NCBI RefSeq assembly: GCF_900104615.1
Contig: NZ_LT629939.1
Span: 1,821,071-1,885,070, forward strand
From: Merdimmobilis hominis
GTDB taxonomy: Bacteria > Bacillota > Clostridia > Oscillospirales > Ruminococcaceae
Length of the DNA stretch: 64,000 nt
Reading direction: 5' to 3'
The position numbers were made by a program, and so were the translations under genes. Shown in pieces: positions 3,079 to 40,795 of this stretch (position 1 is its first letter; each line of letters starts with the position of its first letter). The notes under the pieces are model-generated. The model made no database searches and was not told the DNA's origin. It saw only the letters and a program-made list of their open reading frames with translations.

Positions 3079-3122
3079 AAGAGGGCGGTCAACCCAGCTG
3101 GGTTGACCGCCCTCTTATTTTT
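3079..3122 (+). terminator. Intrinsic terminator after feoB
   Basis: A perfect stem (3079-3095 with 3100-3116, AGCT loop) is followed by TTATTTTT. The hairpin is symmetrical and also lies at the 3' end of the convergent gene at 3129, so it may serve both strands. Confidence 0.85.
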
Positions 3123-3650: not shown

Positions 3651-5363
3651 TTAATCTTCGCTGGAATATTTCTTTTTCCAGCCTCCGTCCCGGCTAGATT
3701 TGCGGGGCAGGCGGTCATACCGCTTTTCTCCGGAGAACCCGCCCCGATCGCCGTAGGGACGGCGGGGGCCGCGGTCTTCATACAGCCGGACCGCCACCTT
3801 GCGGCCGTTAATCTTGCATCCATTCAGGCTTTGGATGGCTTCGTCCCGGCTATCCTGGGGGACTTCCACGGTGGTGTAGGTGTCGTGGATCTCAATTTTT
3901 CCGATCTGGTGGCCCTCCAGGTTGGTGCGCTCCACCATGGCTCCAACGATGTAGTTGGGGGCCATGCCCTGCTGGCGGCCTGCGGAAAGGTGCAGCCGGG
4001 CCATAAAGCTGGAATCCCGGCGGGGGCGGTCGGAGACCACAATGTCGTTGACCGCCTCGATGTCGGGGCGCTCCTTTTCCAAAACCATGGAGAGGGCGGC
4101 GGCGGCCACCTGCTCTGGGGTGTAGCCGCTGGCACATAGGGCTTCCGCCTGCTCCAGGTAAGAGGAGAGGTCGGCGGTGTCCATCACCTCTTTGATCCGG
4201 CTGAGGAACTGGGTAGAGCGGCTCTCCAAGATGGATTCCGGGGTGGGGACCTTCATCACCGGGATCTTTGCCCCAGTGACCTTCTGGATGTCAAACAGCT
4301 CGTACATCTGCTTGCGTCCGCTGAAGATGGTGAAAGCCCGGCCGTTTTTACCTGCCCGGCCGGTCCGGCCGATGCGGTGGATGTAATACTCCGCATTTTG
4401 GGGGATGTCAAAGTTGAATACAGCGTCCACATCGTCTACGTCGATGCCTCGGGCGGCCACGTCGGTGGCGATGAGGATGGAGACCCGGCGGGACTTGAAC
4501 CGGTCCATGACCTGAGTTCGGGCCGACTGCTTCATATCCCCGTGGAGGACTTCACAACCGATACCGGCGTTGTTCAGGTACTCGCCCAGCTGTTCCACCA
4601 TGCTTTTGGTGTTGCAGAAGATGATGGAAAGGGCGGGCTGATGAAATTCCAGCAGGAGGCGCAGGGCGTCCATTTTTCGGCCCTGGGGCACGTTGTAGGC
4701 GGTCTGCTCCACCGTATCGATGGTGCGGGTGTCCTTGCGGATCTCCACCATCTCCGGGTCGGTCTGGAATTCCCGGGTGATGGCCAGAATGGCCGGGGGC
4801 ATGGTGGCGGAGAACAGCACCGTCTGCCGCTCCTGGGGGATGTCTTTGAGGATGGTCTCGATATCCTCCCGGAAGCCCATGTTGAGCATTTCATCGGCCT
4901 CATCCAGGATGATCATTTTGAGATGATCCAGCTTGAGGGTGCGCCGGCGCATGTGGTCCATGACCCGGCCGGGGGTGCCGATGACGATGTTGGCGCCTTT
5001 TTTGAGCAGGAACAGCTGTTTCTCAATGGGCTGGCCGCCATAGACTGGCACCGCTTTGATGCCCGGCTTGTATTTGGAGAACTTGCGGATCTCCTGGCAG
5101 GACTGCATGGCCAGTTCCCGGGTGGGGGAGAGAACCAGCACCTGGACATGCTCTTCCTCTGGGTCGATCCGTTCCACAGCAGGGATGCCGAAGGCAGCGG
5201 TCTTGCCGGTACCGGTGTGGGAGCGGCCGATGACATCCCGCCCGGCCAGAACTAAGGGGATGCTCTTTTCTTGGATTTCAGTGGGGGCTTCAAAGCCCAT
5301 TTCGGTGATGGCGCGGACGATCTCGTCCGAGATGCCGAGGGAGGAAAACTGGGATTCTGTCAT
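3651..5363 (-). CDS. DEAD-box ATP-dependent RNA helicase with C-terminal DbpA-type RNA-binding domain
   Basis: The 570-residue protein carries the full DEAD-box set in order: Q motif GFEAPTEIQ (23-31), motif I SHTGTGKT (48-55), PTRELA, TPGR, DEAD within ILDEADEML, SAT, and HRIGRTGR in the second RecA domain. After about residue 450 there is a DbpA/CsdA-like RNA-binding domain (NYIVGAMVERTNL, then a KVAVRLYEDR strand), then a short basic RGG-like tail. CshA/DeaD-type helicases act in rRNA maturation and mRNA turnover, often in the cold. The histidine in SHTGTGKT, where most members have AQTGTGKT, is a small oddity. AGAGG lies 6 bases before the ATG. The leader contains a terminator (see 5392-5421), suggesting attenuation. 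Confidence 0.95.
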   Translation of the reverse strand: MTESQFSSLGISDEIVRAITEMGFEAPTEIQEKSIPLVLAGRDVIGRSHTGTGKTAAFGIPAVERIDPEEEHVQVLVLSPTRELAMQSCQEIRKFSKYKPGIKAVPVYGGQPIEKQLFLLKKGANIVIGTPGRVMDHMRRRTLKLDHLKMIILDEADEMLNMGFREDIETILKDIPQERQTVLFSATMPPAILAITREFQTDPEMVEIRKDTRTIDTVEQTAYNVPQGRKMDALRLLLEFHQPALSIIFCNTKSMVEQLGEYLNNAGIGCEVLHGDMKQSARTQVMDRFKSRRVSILIATDVAARGIDVDDVDAVFNFDIPQNAEYYIHRIGRTGRAGKNGRAFTIFSGRKQMYELFDIQKVTGAKIPVMKVPTPESILESRSTQFLSRIKEVMDTADLSSYLEQAEALCASGYTPEQVAAAALSMVLEKERPDIEAVNDIVVSDRPRRDSSFMARLHLSAGRQQGMAPNYIVGAMVERTNLEGHQIGKIEIHDTYTTVEVPQDSRDEAIQSLNGCKINGRKVAVRLYEDRGPRRPYGDRGGFSGEKRYDRLPRKSSRDGGWKKKYSSED

Positions 5364-5391
5364 GAAAAACCTCTTTCAAAATTCACTCAAC

Positions 5392-5421
5392 AAAAAAACG
5401 AGGAATGAACATCCTCGTTTT
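5392..5421 (-). terminator. Leader terminator (attenuator candidate) before DEAD-box helicase 1
   Basis: Minus-strand stem AAAACGAGGA / TCCTCGTTTT with a 7-base loop is followed by a run of seven T (5398-5392). It lies between a consensus promoter (5451-5479) and the helicase start (5363). It could end transcription from the upstream methyltransferase gene, but it also lies inside the helicase leader. Confidence 0.75.
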
Positions 5422-5450
5422 CAGGGTTGCTATTCATATACTATTTTATA

Positions 5451-5479
5451 ATAATACCACAGAGGTAACGGGATGTCAA
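5451..5479 (-). promoter_or_regulatory. Sigma-A promoter for DEAD-box helicase 1
   Basis: TTGACA (5479-5474) and TATTAT (5456-5451) are separated by 17 bases on the minus strand. The predicted start is near 5444, giving a leader of about 80 bases that contains the hairpin at 5395-5421. Confidence 0.7.
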
Positions 5480-5514
5480 TTGATTCGCCAAATTTTTCCA
5501 AAATATAAACGGCC

Positions 5515-6684
5515 CTACTCTTCCACCTGGATCAGCTTGCGCAGGGTGGGGGAAACGTGAAGCCACCGGCAGACGGCATCGTACTCGGCCAGGCGGCGGG
5601 AACGCTCCTTCTGGGGGAGGGGCTTCTTTCCTTTGACGGCCCGGATCATCAGATTTTTGGGGGTGTTCTCTGGGTCGATGAATTCCACGATCTGCACCTC
5701 ATACCCCAGGGCCTCCAGCAGGCGGCTGCGCAGGGCGTCGGTGGAGAGCTCACACAGACGCTGCCGCAGGATGGGGTAACCGGTGAGGAAGGAGAGGTCG
5801 GGGCACTCCAGCTGCTCTGCCAATTCGTGGTGGCAACAGGGGGAGGAGAGGATGATCTTACAGCCCCACCGCACCGCGCCCGCCAGCACGATGTCGGTGG
5901 CGGTGTTGCAGGCGTGGAGGCTGATAACCATATCCACTGGGAAGTCCGGGTTGTACTGGAGGATATCCCCCTGCAAAAAGGTCAGGCCATGGAGGCCCAG
6001 GTTTTCCGCCACAGCGTTGCAGCGGGCGATGACATCCGCTTTTAAATCCACCCCGGTGACGTGGACCTCCCTGTGCTTGATGACCGAGAAATAATGGTGC
6101 ACTGCAAAGGTGAGGTAGCTTTTGCCGCAGCACAGGTCCACAATTTCCAGAGGCCGGCCAGTGGGAAGGCTGCCGGCCACATCGTCGATCAGCTCCAAAA
6201 ACCGGTTGATCTGCTTGAATTTATCCCGCATCCGGGGGATGACCCTTCCTTCCCGGTCCATGATGCCCAGCTCCTGCAAAAAAGGGATGGGCTTGTTGTC
6301 AGGCAGGAAGCGGGTTTTGTCCCGGTTGTGTTCCTGGAGGGGGGCAGGGCCGGCTTCCCGAATGTTGTTGTGGATGAGAAGGCTCTTTTTCCCCACCTTC
6401 ACCTCGCAATCCCCGCCGGTGGTGAGAATGTTGCACTGGCGGAAATTTTGTTCCAACTCCCCGCAGAGGAGGGCGGGTGCCTCCTCTGGGGGAAGGTTTT
6501 GATGCAGGGCCTTGTTGTCCGCTGGGTAGCGGGTCAGCTGGACCATGGGCTCCCCGTTTTGGGCGAAAAGATGGACCTCCAACCGGAGGATAGCCCGATC
6601 CCGTGGGCGGCTGAATACCATTTTTTTCAAGGTCTGGCCGGAGATAACATGGGTAAATATTTCTTGGACGGGCTGAAAATCCAT
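5515..6684 (-). CDS. Class I SAM-dependent methyltransferase (Methyltransf_32-like)
   Basis: The 389-residue cytoplasmic protein has a poorly recognisable N-terminal third and a Rossmann methyltransferase core. Motif I reads VDLCCGKSYLTF, followed by VTGVDLKADVIARC (the acidic residue that binds SAM) and MVISLHACNTATD (motif IV region). A later SSPCCHHEL segment has clustered Cys and His. These marks fit the Methyltransf_32 family, whose substrates are mostly unknown. AGGAGG precedes the ATG by 4-5 bases. It is transcribed towards the helicase gene but is separated from it by a terminator and a new promoter. The substrate (RNA, protein or small molecule) cannot be told. Confidence 0.82.
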   Translation of the reverse strand: MDFQPVQEIFTHVISGQTLKKMVFSRPRDRAILRLEVHLFAQNGEPMVQLTRYPADNKALHQNLPPEEAPALLCGELEQNFRQCNILTTGGDCEVKVGKKSLLIHNNIREAGPAPLQEHNRDKTRFLPDNKPIPFLQELGIMDREGRVIPRMRDKFKQINRFLELIDDVAGSLPTGRPLEIVDLCCGKSYLTFAVHHYFSVIKHREVHVTGVDLKADVIARCNAVAENLGLHGLTFLQGDILQYNPDFPVDMVISLHACNTATDIVLAGAVRWGCKIILSSPCCHHELAEQLECPDLSFLTGYPILRQRLCELSTDALRSRLLEALGYEVQIVEFIDPENTPKNLMIRAVKGKKPLPQKERSRRLAEYDAVCRWLHVSPTLRKLIQVEE

Positions 6685-7161
6685 GGATGGTTCCTCCTAG
6701 AAAAAGGGCAAAATCCCAGCAGTTGTAGGGCACCCTCGAAATAACTTGACGAGAACGATTTGGAAGTGGGGGCTTCTTATCGAGAGGGATTTCTTCCCCA
6801 ATGGTTGCTTTGCAGCTATTGCAGCAAAAAGTCTGCACGGACTGGAAAAATCCCGATGCCGCTCTGCGGCGGGAGGGGCTTTGCCCCGAGAGGGATTTCT
6901 TCCCTAATGGTTGCTTTGCAACCATTGTAGCACAAATCCACCTCAGAGGGGAGAGGGTTCTGAAGAATCTGAAAAGGGAACAAAAAATTTTCTTTTTTTC
7001 CGTATTTGGGGAAAACCAATCCACAGGGGGCGCAGTTGTGGAGAATCCCTTTTAAATGCAAAGAATCAGTTCCTCTCTCCAAGGAACGTAGGGGTGAAAG
7101 GGGCCGTATGATGGGGATGAAGACCCTGCCAAGAAACCCATCAAAATCAGGAGGTATCGCC
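6685..7161. repeat. Gene-free region with a direct repeat of about 50 bp
   Basis: Two copies of a 50-bp unit lie at 6781-6830 and 6887-6936, 106 bp apart. Both begin CGAGAGGGATTTCTTCCC and continue into AATGGTTGCTTTGCA. In copy 2 the end is a perfect 9-bp inverted repeat (AATGGTTGC/GCAACCATT, 3-base loop); in copy 1 it is imperfect. Both copies are preceded by a GGGGCTT-like segment. This looks like a small interspersed repeat. Nothing else was recognised; a promoter for cotJ should lie in the last 150 bases but no convincing sigma-E boxes were seen. Confidence 0.6.
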
Positions 7162-8272: not shown

Positions 8273-8316
8273 AAAAGGCCAGGCCGGATTTTCCGGCCTG
8301 GCCTTTTAGTGTTTTG
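8273..8316 (+). terminator. Terminator after cotJC
   Basis: A perfect 16-bp stem (8273-8288 with 8292-8307) is followed by a T-rich stretch. The symmetrical hairpin also fits as the terminator of the convergent ABC transporter operon ending at 8330. Confidence 0.85.
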
Positions 8317-11967: not shown

Positions 11968-11996
11968 TTGAATTTTTTTCCAGCCCATGCTACAAT
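11968..11996 (+). promoter_or_regulatory. Promoter of DEAD-box helicase 2
   Basis: TTGAAT (11968-11973) and TACAAT (11991-11996) are 17 bases apart. The predicted transcript has a leader of about 75 bases. The 339-base region 11741-12079 holds only this promoter, the divergent ABC promoter and AT-rich spacer. Confidence 0.6.
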
Positions 11997-12079
11997 AATC
12001 CCACGGCGGCGGTCGGTAAGGCTCCGGCGTTGCAACAACAACCACAGAGGGAAATTACCCTTTTTTGAAAGGACTTTAT

Positions 12080-13660
12080 ATGAAATTTGAACAACTGAAC
12101 TTGGCTGCCCCTATCCTGAAGGCGCTGGCGGAAGAGGGCTACACCGCCCCGTCCCCCATTCAGGAGAAGGCCATCCCTCCGGTGCTGGAAGGGCGCGACC
12201 TATTGGGCTGTGCCCAAACCGGCACTGGCAAGACCTGTGCCTTTGCCTGCCCCATGCTCCAAACTCTGTATGGGCGGCCGGTGCGGGAGAAAATCCGGCC
12301 GATCCGGGGCCTGGTGCTCACTCCCACCCGGGAACTGGCCCTCCAGATCAGCGAGAGCTTCCAGAGCTATGGCCGGCATCTGCCCATCCGCACCACCGTC
12401 ATCTTTGGTGGGGTATCCCAGGTACCCCAGGTGGAAGCACTCAAACAGGGGGTGGATATTCTGGTGGCTACCCCGGGCCGGCTCAATGATCTGATTGGCC
12501 AAGGGTACATCGACCTCTCCAAGGTGGAGATTTTTGTGCTGGATGAAGCCGACCGGATGCTGGATATGGGCTTTATCCACGACGTGAAGCGGGTGATTGG
12601 AAAGCTGCCCCAGAAGCGGCAGACCCTTTTGTTTTCCGCAACCATGCCCCAGGAGATCATCAAACTGGTGGAGACGATCTTAAAAAATCCGGTGAAGGTC
12701 ATGGTGACTCCGGTCTCCTCCACGGTGGAGATCATTGACCAGTCGGTCTACTTTGTGGACAAGGCCAACAAGCCCAAGCTGTTGATCCACCTGCTCCAGG
12801 ACCCAGCTATCACGTCGGCTCTGGTGTTCACCCGCACCAAACACGGCGCGGACCGGGTAGCCCGACTGCTGCAAAAGGCGGGGATTGGGGCTGCGGCCAT
12901 CCATGGGGATAAATCCCAAGGGGCGCGGCAAGCCGCCCTCTCCCGGTTTAAGAAAGGGGAGATCCGGGTTCTTGTCGCCACCGACATCGCCGCCCGAGGA
13001 ATCGACATCGACGAGCTCTCCCACGTGTTCAACTACGACCTGCCCGACGTGCCGGAGACCTACGTCCACCGCATCGGCCGGACGGGCCGGGCAGGGGCAG
13101 GAGGCACCGCCATCGCCTTCTGCAACTTTGATGAGAAGGAAAACCTGAAAGATATTGAAAAACTGATTCGCAAACAGATCCCCGTGGTGGAGGGCCACCC
13201 CTACCCCATGGAGATCTTCGAGCCCACGGTAAAGCAGCCGCCCCAGCCCCGCAGGGCCCGGGAGCCGCAACAGGGGAAGGCCGCTCCCAAAAAAGTGAAA
13301 CAGCCGGCCCGGCAGCTAGAGAAAAAAGATCTGTCGCGGGGAGAACACCCCGCCCGGCCCCAGAGGGAGGGGAGCGCGGTGGAGCCGGCTGAAAAAGCGC
13401 CCCAGCGAAAAACCCCTTTGCCCTCCCAGAAAAAAGATTCCCCGGCGAAACCTGCCTCTAGTAGGGAGAGGGCACAGGGGGGAGCCCCCCAGCAGCGCCC
13501 AGCGAAAAAACCGGCTCGCCGGGGAGCGCCCCAACGGGAACAGAAGGCCCCGAAACAGCCGGTAGCTCCGGAGGAAAAACGCCCCCAGATCGCCTTCCAG
13601 AGGGAGGCCCACACCGAAGTGAAAACCGTCCCCCGCAAATGGTTTGAGTTCTGGAAATAA
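12080..13660 (+). CDS. DEAD-box RNA helicase, RhlE/CshA-like, with long basic tail
   Basis: The 526-residue protein has the conserved helicase core in its first 375 residues: Q motif with SPIQEKAIP (25-33), motif I AQTGTGKT (45-52), PTRELA, DEAD in [26 protein letters not shown] and HRIGRTGR. The remaining 150 residues are low-complexity, rich in Lys, Pro, Arg and Gln, as in RhlE tails that bind RNA without fixed sequence. ATG 12080 is chosen over an upstream TTG at 12065 because AAAGGA lies about 7 bases before it. It is a single-gene unit with its own promoter and terminator. Confidence 0.93.
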
Positions 13661-24554: not shown

Positions 24555-24628
24555 GCGGATGTAGTTTAGTGGTAAAATATTAGCTTCCCAAGCTGAGGTT
24601 GCGGGTTCGATTCCCGTCATCCGCTCCA
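24555..24628 (+). tRNA. tRNA-Gly (anticodon CCC)
   Basis: The cloverleaf is clear: acceptor GCGGATG/CATCCGC, D arm with AGTGGTAAA, anticodon stem TTAGC/GCTGA around loop TTCCCAA (anticodon CCC, glycine), T arm CGGGTTCGATTCCCG, discriminator T and an encoded CCA (24626-24628). A strong terminator follows, so it is a monocistronic tRNA gene. Confidence 0.97.
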
Positions 24629-40512: not shown

Positions 40513-40795
40513 AAAAAAGGCCCGCCCCAAGCATTTTCTGCTTAGGGCGAACCGTTTGGTCCGTGGTACCACCTAACTTCGGGCAAGCTGCCCGCACTCT
40601 GCCGATACATTCATATCGCTTTCCCGGTAACGGTGGAAACTCCGGTGGAGCCTACTGAGGCTTGTGCCCGTTGGGTCCACGGCTCGAAAGCTACTTCCAC
40701 ACCGCCCTCACGAAGATTTTCACCAGCCATCTTCTCTCTGTGCTTTGGAAGGGTGTGTACTCCTCTTTGTCAACGCCATTTTACTATATCATCTT
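40513..40795 (-). promoter_or_regulatory. T-box riboswitch of valS (tRNA-Val sensing)
   Basis: The minus-strand leader has all main T-box parts. Stem I begins near AAAGAGGAGTAC and includes a specifier region GGAAGTAGC, whose GTA is a valine codon. The T-box sequence AGGTGGTACCACGG lies at about 40574-40561. The terminator stem GCCCTAAGCA/TGCTTGGGGC (40548-40524) ends in six T (40518-40513). Uncharged tRNA-Val should bind specifier and T-box and favour the antiterminator, which turns valS on. Confidence 0.93.

Follow-up and report, generated by a model that had tools for sequence, protein, structure and literature searches.

In a window of 64,000 nucleotides of the Merdimmobilis hominis genome, the gene of a DEAD-box RNA helicase follows a near-consensus promoter and an intrinsic terminator, which ends 28 nt before the start codon of the gene. 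We consider it probable, from the comparison of leaders described below, that the helicase gene, of DeaD/CshA type, is controlled here by a promoter-proximal transcription attenuator of the hairpin-only kind. The amount of helicase is probably set by the frequency with which RNA polymerase reads through the leader terminator. The promoter–terminator layout is more than a chance feature. It recurs in many Clostridia as a compact element of about 90 bp, promoter included, and poses the question of whether an intrinsic terminator without a competing fold can serve as a regulated switch. To our knowledge, the way in which RNA-helicase levels are matched to the load of structured RNA, especially in the cold, is little understood beyond a small number of model species.

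The helicase locus

The features of the locus are listed in Table 1. The original prediction had described a consensus promoter (TTGACA-N17-TATTAT), a complete intrinsic terminator at the end of the first 50 bases of the leader and a spacing of about 30 bases to the start codon, and each of these elements was recovered. The promoter matches the consensus at 11 of 12 positions, both by inspection and in the promoter scan, and in the first 12 kb of the window the same score is reached elsewhere only by the site 566-538. The distance from the predicted transcription start to the end of the T run is 53 nt (57 under the script convention, which adds four), and the helicase ATG lies 28 nt further on; on the minus strand, the promoter scan detected no additional promoter-like site between hairpin and ATG. 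The order of promoter, intrinsic terminator and gene by which an attenuator is recognized is thus present at the locus, as far as it can be read from the sequence.

Table 1. Coordinates of features at the helicase locus (numbering of the window)
Feature	Position	Strand	Basis or remark
Upstream co-directional gene, 389 aa	6684-5515	minus	PrmC methyltransferase model match far below cut-off
Sigma-A type promoter, TTGACA-17-TATTAT, TG before the -10 element	5479-5451	minus	sequence and promoter scan
Transcription start, predicted	5444	minus	inferred from promoter position, about 7 nt past the -10 element
Terminator hairpin	5421-5395	minus	arms 5421-5412 and 5404-5395, 7-nt loop 5411-5405, -12.2 kcal/mol
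U tract, seven T	5398-5392	minus	its first four T pair with the A run too
Likely ribosome binding site, AAAGAGG	5376-5370	minus	read from the sequence
DEAD-box RNA helicase, 570 aa	3651-5363	minus	DEAD, Helicase_C, DeaD dimerization domain, DbpA RNA-binding domain

RNAfold gives the leader hairpin 11 pairs and the leader a z-score of -2.63, with equally good folding in 5 of 200 shuffles. Unlike RNAfold and a separate terminator scan, which both detect the terminator, a consensus scanner listed none in 5300-5600. Because of these two detections we tentatively ascribe the miss to the stem-lengthening rule of the scanner, which may have extended the stem through A/T and G-T pairs and so consumed the T run.

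All four helicase domains exceed their Pfam cut-offs, and on this sequence evidence the protein is classified as a DeaD/CshA-type DEAD-box helicase; its 519.5 bits do not reach the cut-off of 646 of the CshA equivalog model NF053631. The window encodes a second DEAD-box helicase (ATG 12080, plus strand), whose start is preceded, at 11968-12080, by a promoter-like site and, at a distance of 20 nt, by a weak hairpin resembling a terminator. With its weaker promoter and a leader fold close to that of shuffled sequences (z -0.18), it was rejected as a further attenuator case and left uncounted. Two 62-nt direct repeats, 84% identical (6769-6830 and 6875-6936), lie just upstream of the 389-aa gene.

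Recurrence of the layout

Leaders were counted by a rule that was written after the first of them had been inspected. It demands a promoter score of at least 11 (hexamer matches, plus one for TG), a hairpin with a T-rich tail and a folding energy of -7 kcal/mol or better at a gap of at most 120, no promoter of score 10 or more after the terminator, and a start codon no further than 230 nt away. The family set comprised 50 genomes with a helicase match, from which 45 leaders were obtained after removal of four with an unusable 5' end (G023, G193, G068, G182) and one with 27 nt upstream (G041); the start codon assigned to G021 is uncertain, being 165 nt off. Fifteen of the 45 helicase leaders conform to the rule, so that the attenuator-like layout proposed for the window is shared within the family. 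The misses include leaders with an upstream terminator-like hairpin (G186, G009, G025, G145, G019, G115), and weak cases among the conforming leaders are L018 and G123, which has a long leader, a hairpin of -8.5 kcal/mol and a competing fold of -21.2.

The layout is rare before other genes. In 464 kb of the same genome (20 stretches and the window), a single upstream region out of 261 conforms, that of this gene, and none of the 259 upstream regions of other genes does. At 20 loci of relatives 12 of 221 regions conform, ten of them before this helicase. These loci were partly picked for promising leaders, and 15/45 for the whole family is therefore the fair helicase figure. For other genes at the relatives' loci the count is 2/203, obtained from 205 rows with four matches by subtracting two helicases missed by the motif rule, and the helicases of L179 and L184 are possibly still among the 203. 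This control scan used script-chosen starts, under which G061, G037 and G192 fail though they conform in the family count. The difference between helicase and other genes gives a Fisher p of about 1e-10 (computed with 2 of 202).

Among family helicases with a strong promoter, a terminator follows it in 15/27, against 1.66 +/- 1.14 in dinucleotide shuffles of the promoter-to-ATG stretch, an excess that concerns hairpin and T-rich tail jointly. The corresponding values are 12/21 against 0.61 for the helicases of named genomes, and 2/48 for other genes with a strong promoter (helicases removed as for 2/203).

Named genomes provided 78 loci with a start codon out of 80, of which 12 conform; L005, one of these, duplicates the record G095, hence 11/77. 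In a class-wide set, the best 69 of 103 other matched genomes, 68 had a start codon and three conform. As 30 of the 45 leaders in the family set and 65 of the 68 in the class set fail the rule, the attenuator layout is not needed for the helicase gene. On a tree of 61 proteins, 22 of them with the layout, at least 12 gains or losses are required, and the clustering is slightly above that of shuffled labels (10/500 as low). Several branches of the window's own family have the layout, and so do, among Lachnospiraceae, Lacrimispora, Hungatella, Lachnobacterium, Herbinix and, as a weak case, Mobilisporobacter; the Ruminococcus-like branch has it in 0/9 rows. The leader layout is a labile habit rather than an invariant one, and is rare in the wider class.

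Sequence of the hairpin

Position is conserved more than sequence among the helicase leaders. Of the 26 rule-meeting leaders (15 of the family and 11 of named genomes), 16 are 47-63 nt long, counted from the predicted start to just behind the T run; the distance from hairpin to ATG ranges from 9 to 145 nt, and the stems from AACGAGGA/TCCTCGTT through AACGGGG/CCCCGTT and GGCGGGGA/TCCCCGCC to GGGCGG/CGCCC. The pattern AACGAGGAN(3-14)TCCTCGTTTT is found in 14 of 197 family genomes, at a single place in each; six of these places are the leader of this helicase and the remaining eight do not precede it. A stem base of the form ACGRR...YYCGT is shared by 10 of 29 leaders (11 with G130, which was admitted by a looser rule for G130 alone), including the distant leaders L029, L031, L060, L206 and L273, and occurs in 1 of 186 other gene-end terminators (five rows that are these same leaders having been removed).

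In an alignment of 12 hairpins, whose rows were selected for having a hairpin and of which G037 is out of register, 96.9% of the cells are paired and two-sided changes occur at 3 of 8 pairs. The paired cells and the covariation score lie above all 500 shuffles; the count of two-sided pairs was reached by 25/500 and that of further pair types by 208/500. An RNA model, R1, was built from nine leader hairpins, without those of L206, L029, L031 and L273, and searched against 197 genomes of the family and 291 of the class; by construction, its 11 best family matches include all nine training leaders. Of the R1 matches examined, 7 of the 8 that are helicase leaders have a promoter scoring at least 10 in front of them, compared with 1 of the other 46. 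These figures come from 54 of 59 loci, five at contig ends being left out and L296 having been read on the wrong strand, and helicase loci were assigned by coordinates, as the helicase frames run off the loci. With a promoter before only one of the 46 other matches examined, a regulon of further genes with R1 hairpins was rejected. A loose promoter-and-hairpin pattern was likewise discarded as a detector, as it matches 159 of 197 genomes and does not discriminate.

Leader folds, terminator strength and temperature

In the 26 rule-meeting leaders, the hairpin begins at most 12 nt from the predicted start in 11 cases and at most 20 nt in 18. Six of the leaders contain a competing fold that reaches -5 kcal/mol, and in G123 and L018 this fold beats the terminator; the other 20 have none. 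In the window, the best fold available before the 3' arm reaches -4.4 kcal/mol, against -12.2 for the terminator. A two-state attenuator of the riboswitch, T-box or trp-like kind was rejected, as no mutually exclusive fold reaching -5 kcal/mol was found in the window or in 20 of the 26 leaders. Start codons led by a Shine-Dalgarno (SD) sequence are present in three of the leaders and absent from 23; a leader peptide in the window was rejected as well, since its 16-codon frame from ATG 5437 crosses the hairpin and has no SD sequence. With so few competing folds and SD-led starts, a riboswitch-like or leader-peptide switch is unlikely for most leaders.

At the window leader no Rfam match attains the gathering score; only weak, scattered matches at E up to 10 were obtained there. 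The only Rfam cis-regulatory match of the window at gathering score is a T-box leader (RF00230, 117.7 bits) at 40540-40782 on the minus strand.

About 80% of 97 gene-end terminators sampled from the same genome are stronger than the window hairpin (-12.2 kcal/mol against a median of -20.2 for the 97), whose predicted weakness would suit partial read-through. Across the family, the difference in strength between leader hairpins and the relatives' gene-end terminators is not significant (p 0.09). The predicted stability of the window hairpin rises from -12.2 kcal/mol at 37 C to -17.7 at 15 C. Consequently, melting by temperature alone would not turn the gene on in the cold, and cold induction would need the polymerase or RNA-binding proteins. 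Long leaders of about 155-220 nt, without a convincing terminator, follow a strong promoter at L091, L089 and L095 (G091, G123 and G020), and possibly represent another kind of leader control.

Relation to known systems

A close parallel is provided by the greA/rnk leaders (Naville and Gautheret 2010, PMC2965389), where the gene of a general RNA or transcription factor likewise carries a leader terminator that recurs across species with unlike sequences. According to the main text of that article, however, each greA/rnk cluster has a clear antiterminator, whereas most helicase leaders are without one; the words 'helicase' and 'DEAD' are absent from this main text by text search. Leader control of cold-stress RNA chaperone and helicase genes is reported for Caulobacter, where cspA is induced in the cold by means of transcription attenuation and RhlE is controlled through its 5' UTR (PMC5472812). 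This rhlE gene belongs to another phylum and has a long structured 5' UTR of 186 nt, for which the text of the article consulted describes no promoter-proximal intrinsic terminator. T-box, riboswitch and ribosomal-protein leaders also place a terminator before a regulated gene, but the helicase leader is far shorter and matches no Rfam family at gathering score.

Cold-shock proteins alter terminator read-through both in Escherichia coli (antitermination by the CspA family; Bae 2000, as cited in PMC8307031) and in Bacillus subtilis (CspB and CspD; PMC8307031). In the latter, the authors conclude that CspB and CspD favour termination, and their text, in the part consulted, does not discuss a helicase leader. 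In the acetogen A. bakii, DEAD-box genes are reported to be raised in the cold, and attenuation of acetogenesis genes was sought and not clearly seen (PMC6239172, as far as consulted). Plausible actors suggested by the literature are CshA at RNA polymerase and Csp proteins at terminators. Among open-access papers, judged largely from titles and abstracts, we found none dealing with a terminator in the leader of a DEAD-box helicase gene in bacteria, which is weak evidence of absence. The principle of leader attenuation is well known; the helicase gene and the hairpin-only form would extend it by a further case, possibly of a different type.

Proposed mechanism and alternative explanations

In the mechanism that we favour, RNA polymerase would start at the strong promoter, make a leader of about 50-57 nt and frequently stop at the intrinsic terminator, so that the helicase mRNA would be the product of those polymerases that read through. 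As most leaders carry neither a competing fold nor a leader peptide, read-through would be set at the hairpin itself or at the young elongation complex. Candidates for setting it are Csp-type RNA chaperones, Nus factors, a polymerase-bound helicase, and temperature acting via the polymerase. We infer both termination in the cell and regulated read-through; general RNA-structure stress or cold stress seems the likeliest of the possible signals. A more specific version, in which the hairpin is itself the sensor, is rather doubtful: a DeaD/CshA-type helicase travelling with the polymerase, or else a cold-shock RNA chaperone, would recognize its ACGRR...YYCGT stem, and free unwinding capacity would set helicase output without antiterminator, ligand or leader peptide.

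The terminator could instead cut the output of the strong promoter by a constant factor and respond to no signal. Such a fixed ratio is possible, if unlikely; it agrees with the lack of competing folds and leader peptides in most of the 26 leaders and with the many relatives that manage without a hairpin, but a weaker promoter would, as an argument, suffice with less sequence, and the layout is found again in separate branches, where the hairpins differ. Autogenous control, in which a polymerase-bound helicase alters read-through of its own leader, with positive sign if it melts the terminator and negative sign if it aids folding, is unlikely as well. The natural RNA target of DbpA is hairpin 92 of 23S rRNA, with the loop UGUUC, and this loop is present in only 3 of 29 leader hairpins, a count on which mimicry of hairpin 92 was also rejected. 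Self-melting, which the original prediction had put forward beside temperature as a possible control, would moreover mean positive feedback, and in Caulobacter the sign is the opposite, expression from the rhlE promoter region being reported as increased in an rhlE mutant (PMC5472812, as far as consulted). In favour of autogenous control, the combination of promoter and hairpin looks helicase-specific among the R1 matches (7/8 against 1/46), and in B. subtilis CshA is reported to be bound to half of the RNA polymerase pool (PMC5126115, citing Delumeau 2011).

It is highly unlikely that the hairpin is a mere 3' terminator of the upstream gene with a promoter in front of it by accident. The upstream stop in the window lies 93 nt before the hairpin with no other terminator detected between them by the scan, and 13 of 16 relatives have a co-directional upstream gene. 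Yet by BLASTP four of these 16 upstream genes group together and two form a pair, the other ten being singletons, and the nearest upstream frame is on the opposite strand in three, being a long one in G037 and G186. As the upstream genes are mostly unrelated and three are on the other strand, the hairpin goes with the helicase and not with the neighbour, though in the window it may also terminate transcripts of the upstream gene.

Very small probabilities are also given to two other roles. The promoter–hairpin unit could be an independent trans-acting small RNA, as proposed for the greA leader RNA (GraL, Potrykus 2010, as cited in PMC2965389, main text). A short RNA is expected here too and the greA leaders offer a precedent, but outside the stem the leaders are unlike between genera by eye. 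Equally improbable is action of the hairpin in the finished mRNA, through protection of the 5' end or ribosome access, with the T run incidental. Its place 28 nt before the start codon in the window would suit such a role, which the variable hairpin-to-ATG distance speaks against; the T-rich tail, being part of the search rule, is no evidence against an incidental T run.

Other observations

Two near-perfect palindromes with T-rich tails (3079-3116, 17 pairs, and 8273-8307, 16 pairs) are probably ordinary gene-end terminators. A tRNA lies at 24555-24625 on the plus strand of the window. In another stretch of the same genome (L138), two copies of an upstream hairpin together with the predicted N-terminus MAILVQKFGGSSLANGEK lie 3.3 kb from each other (at about 13987 and 17295); by eye, this N-terminus is aspartokinase-like.
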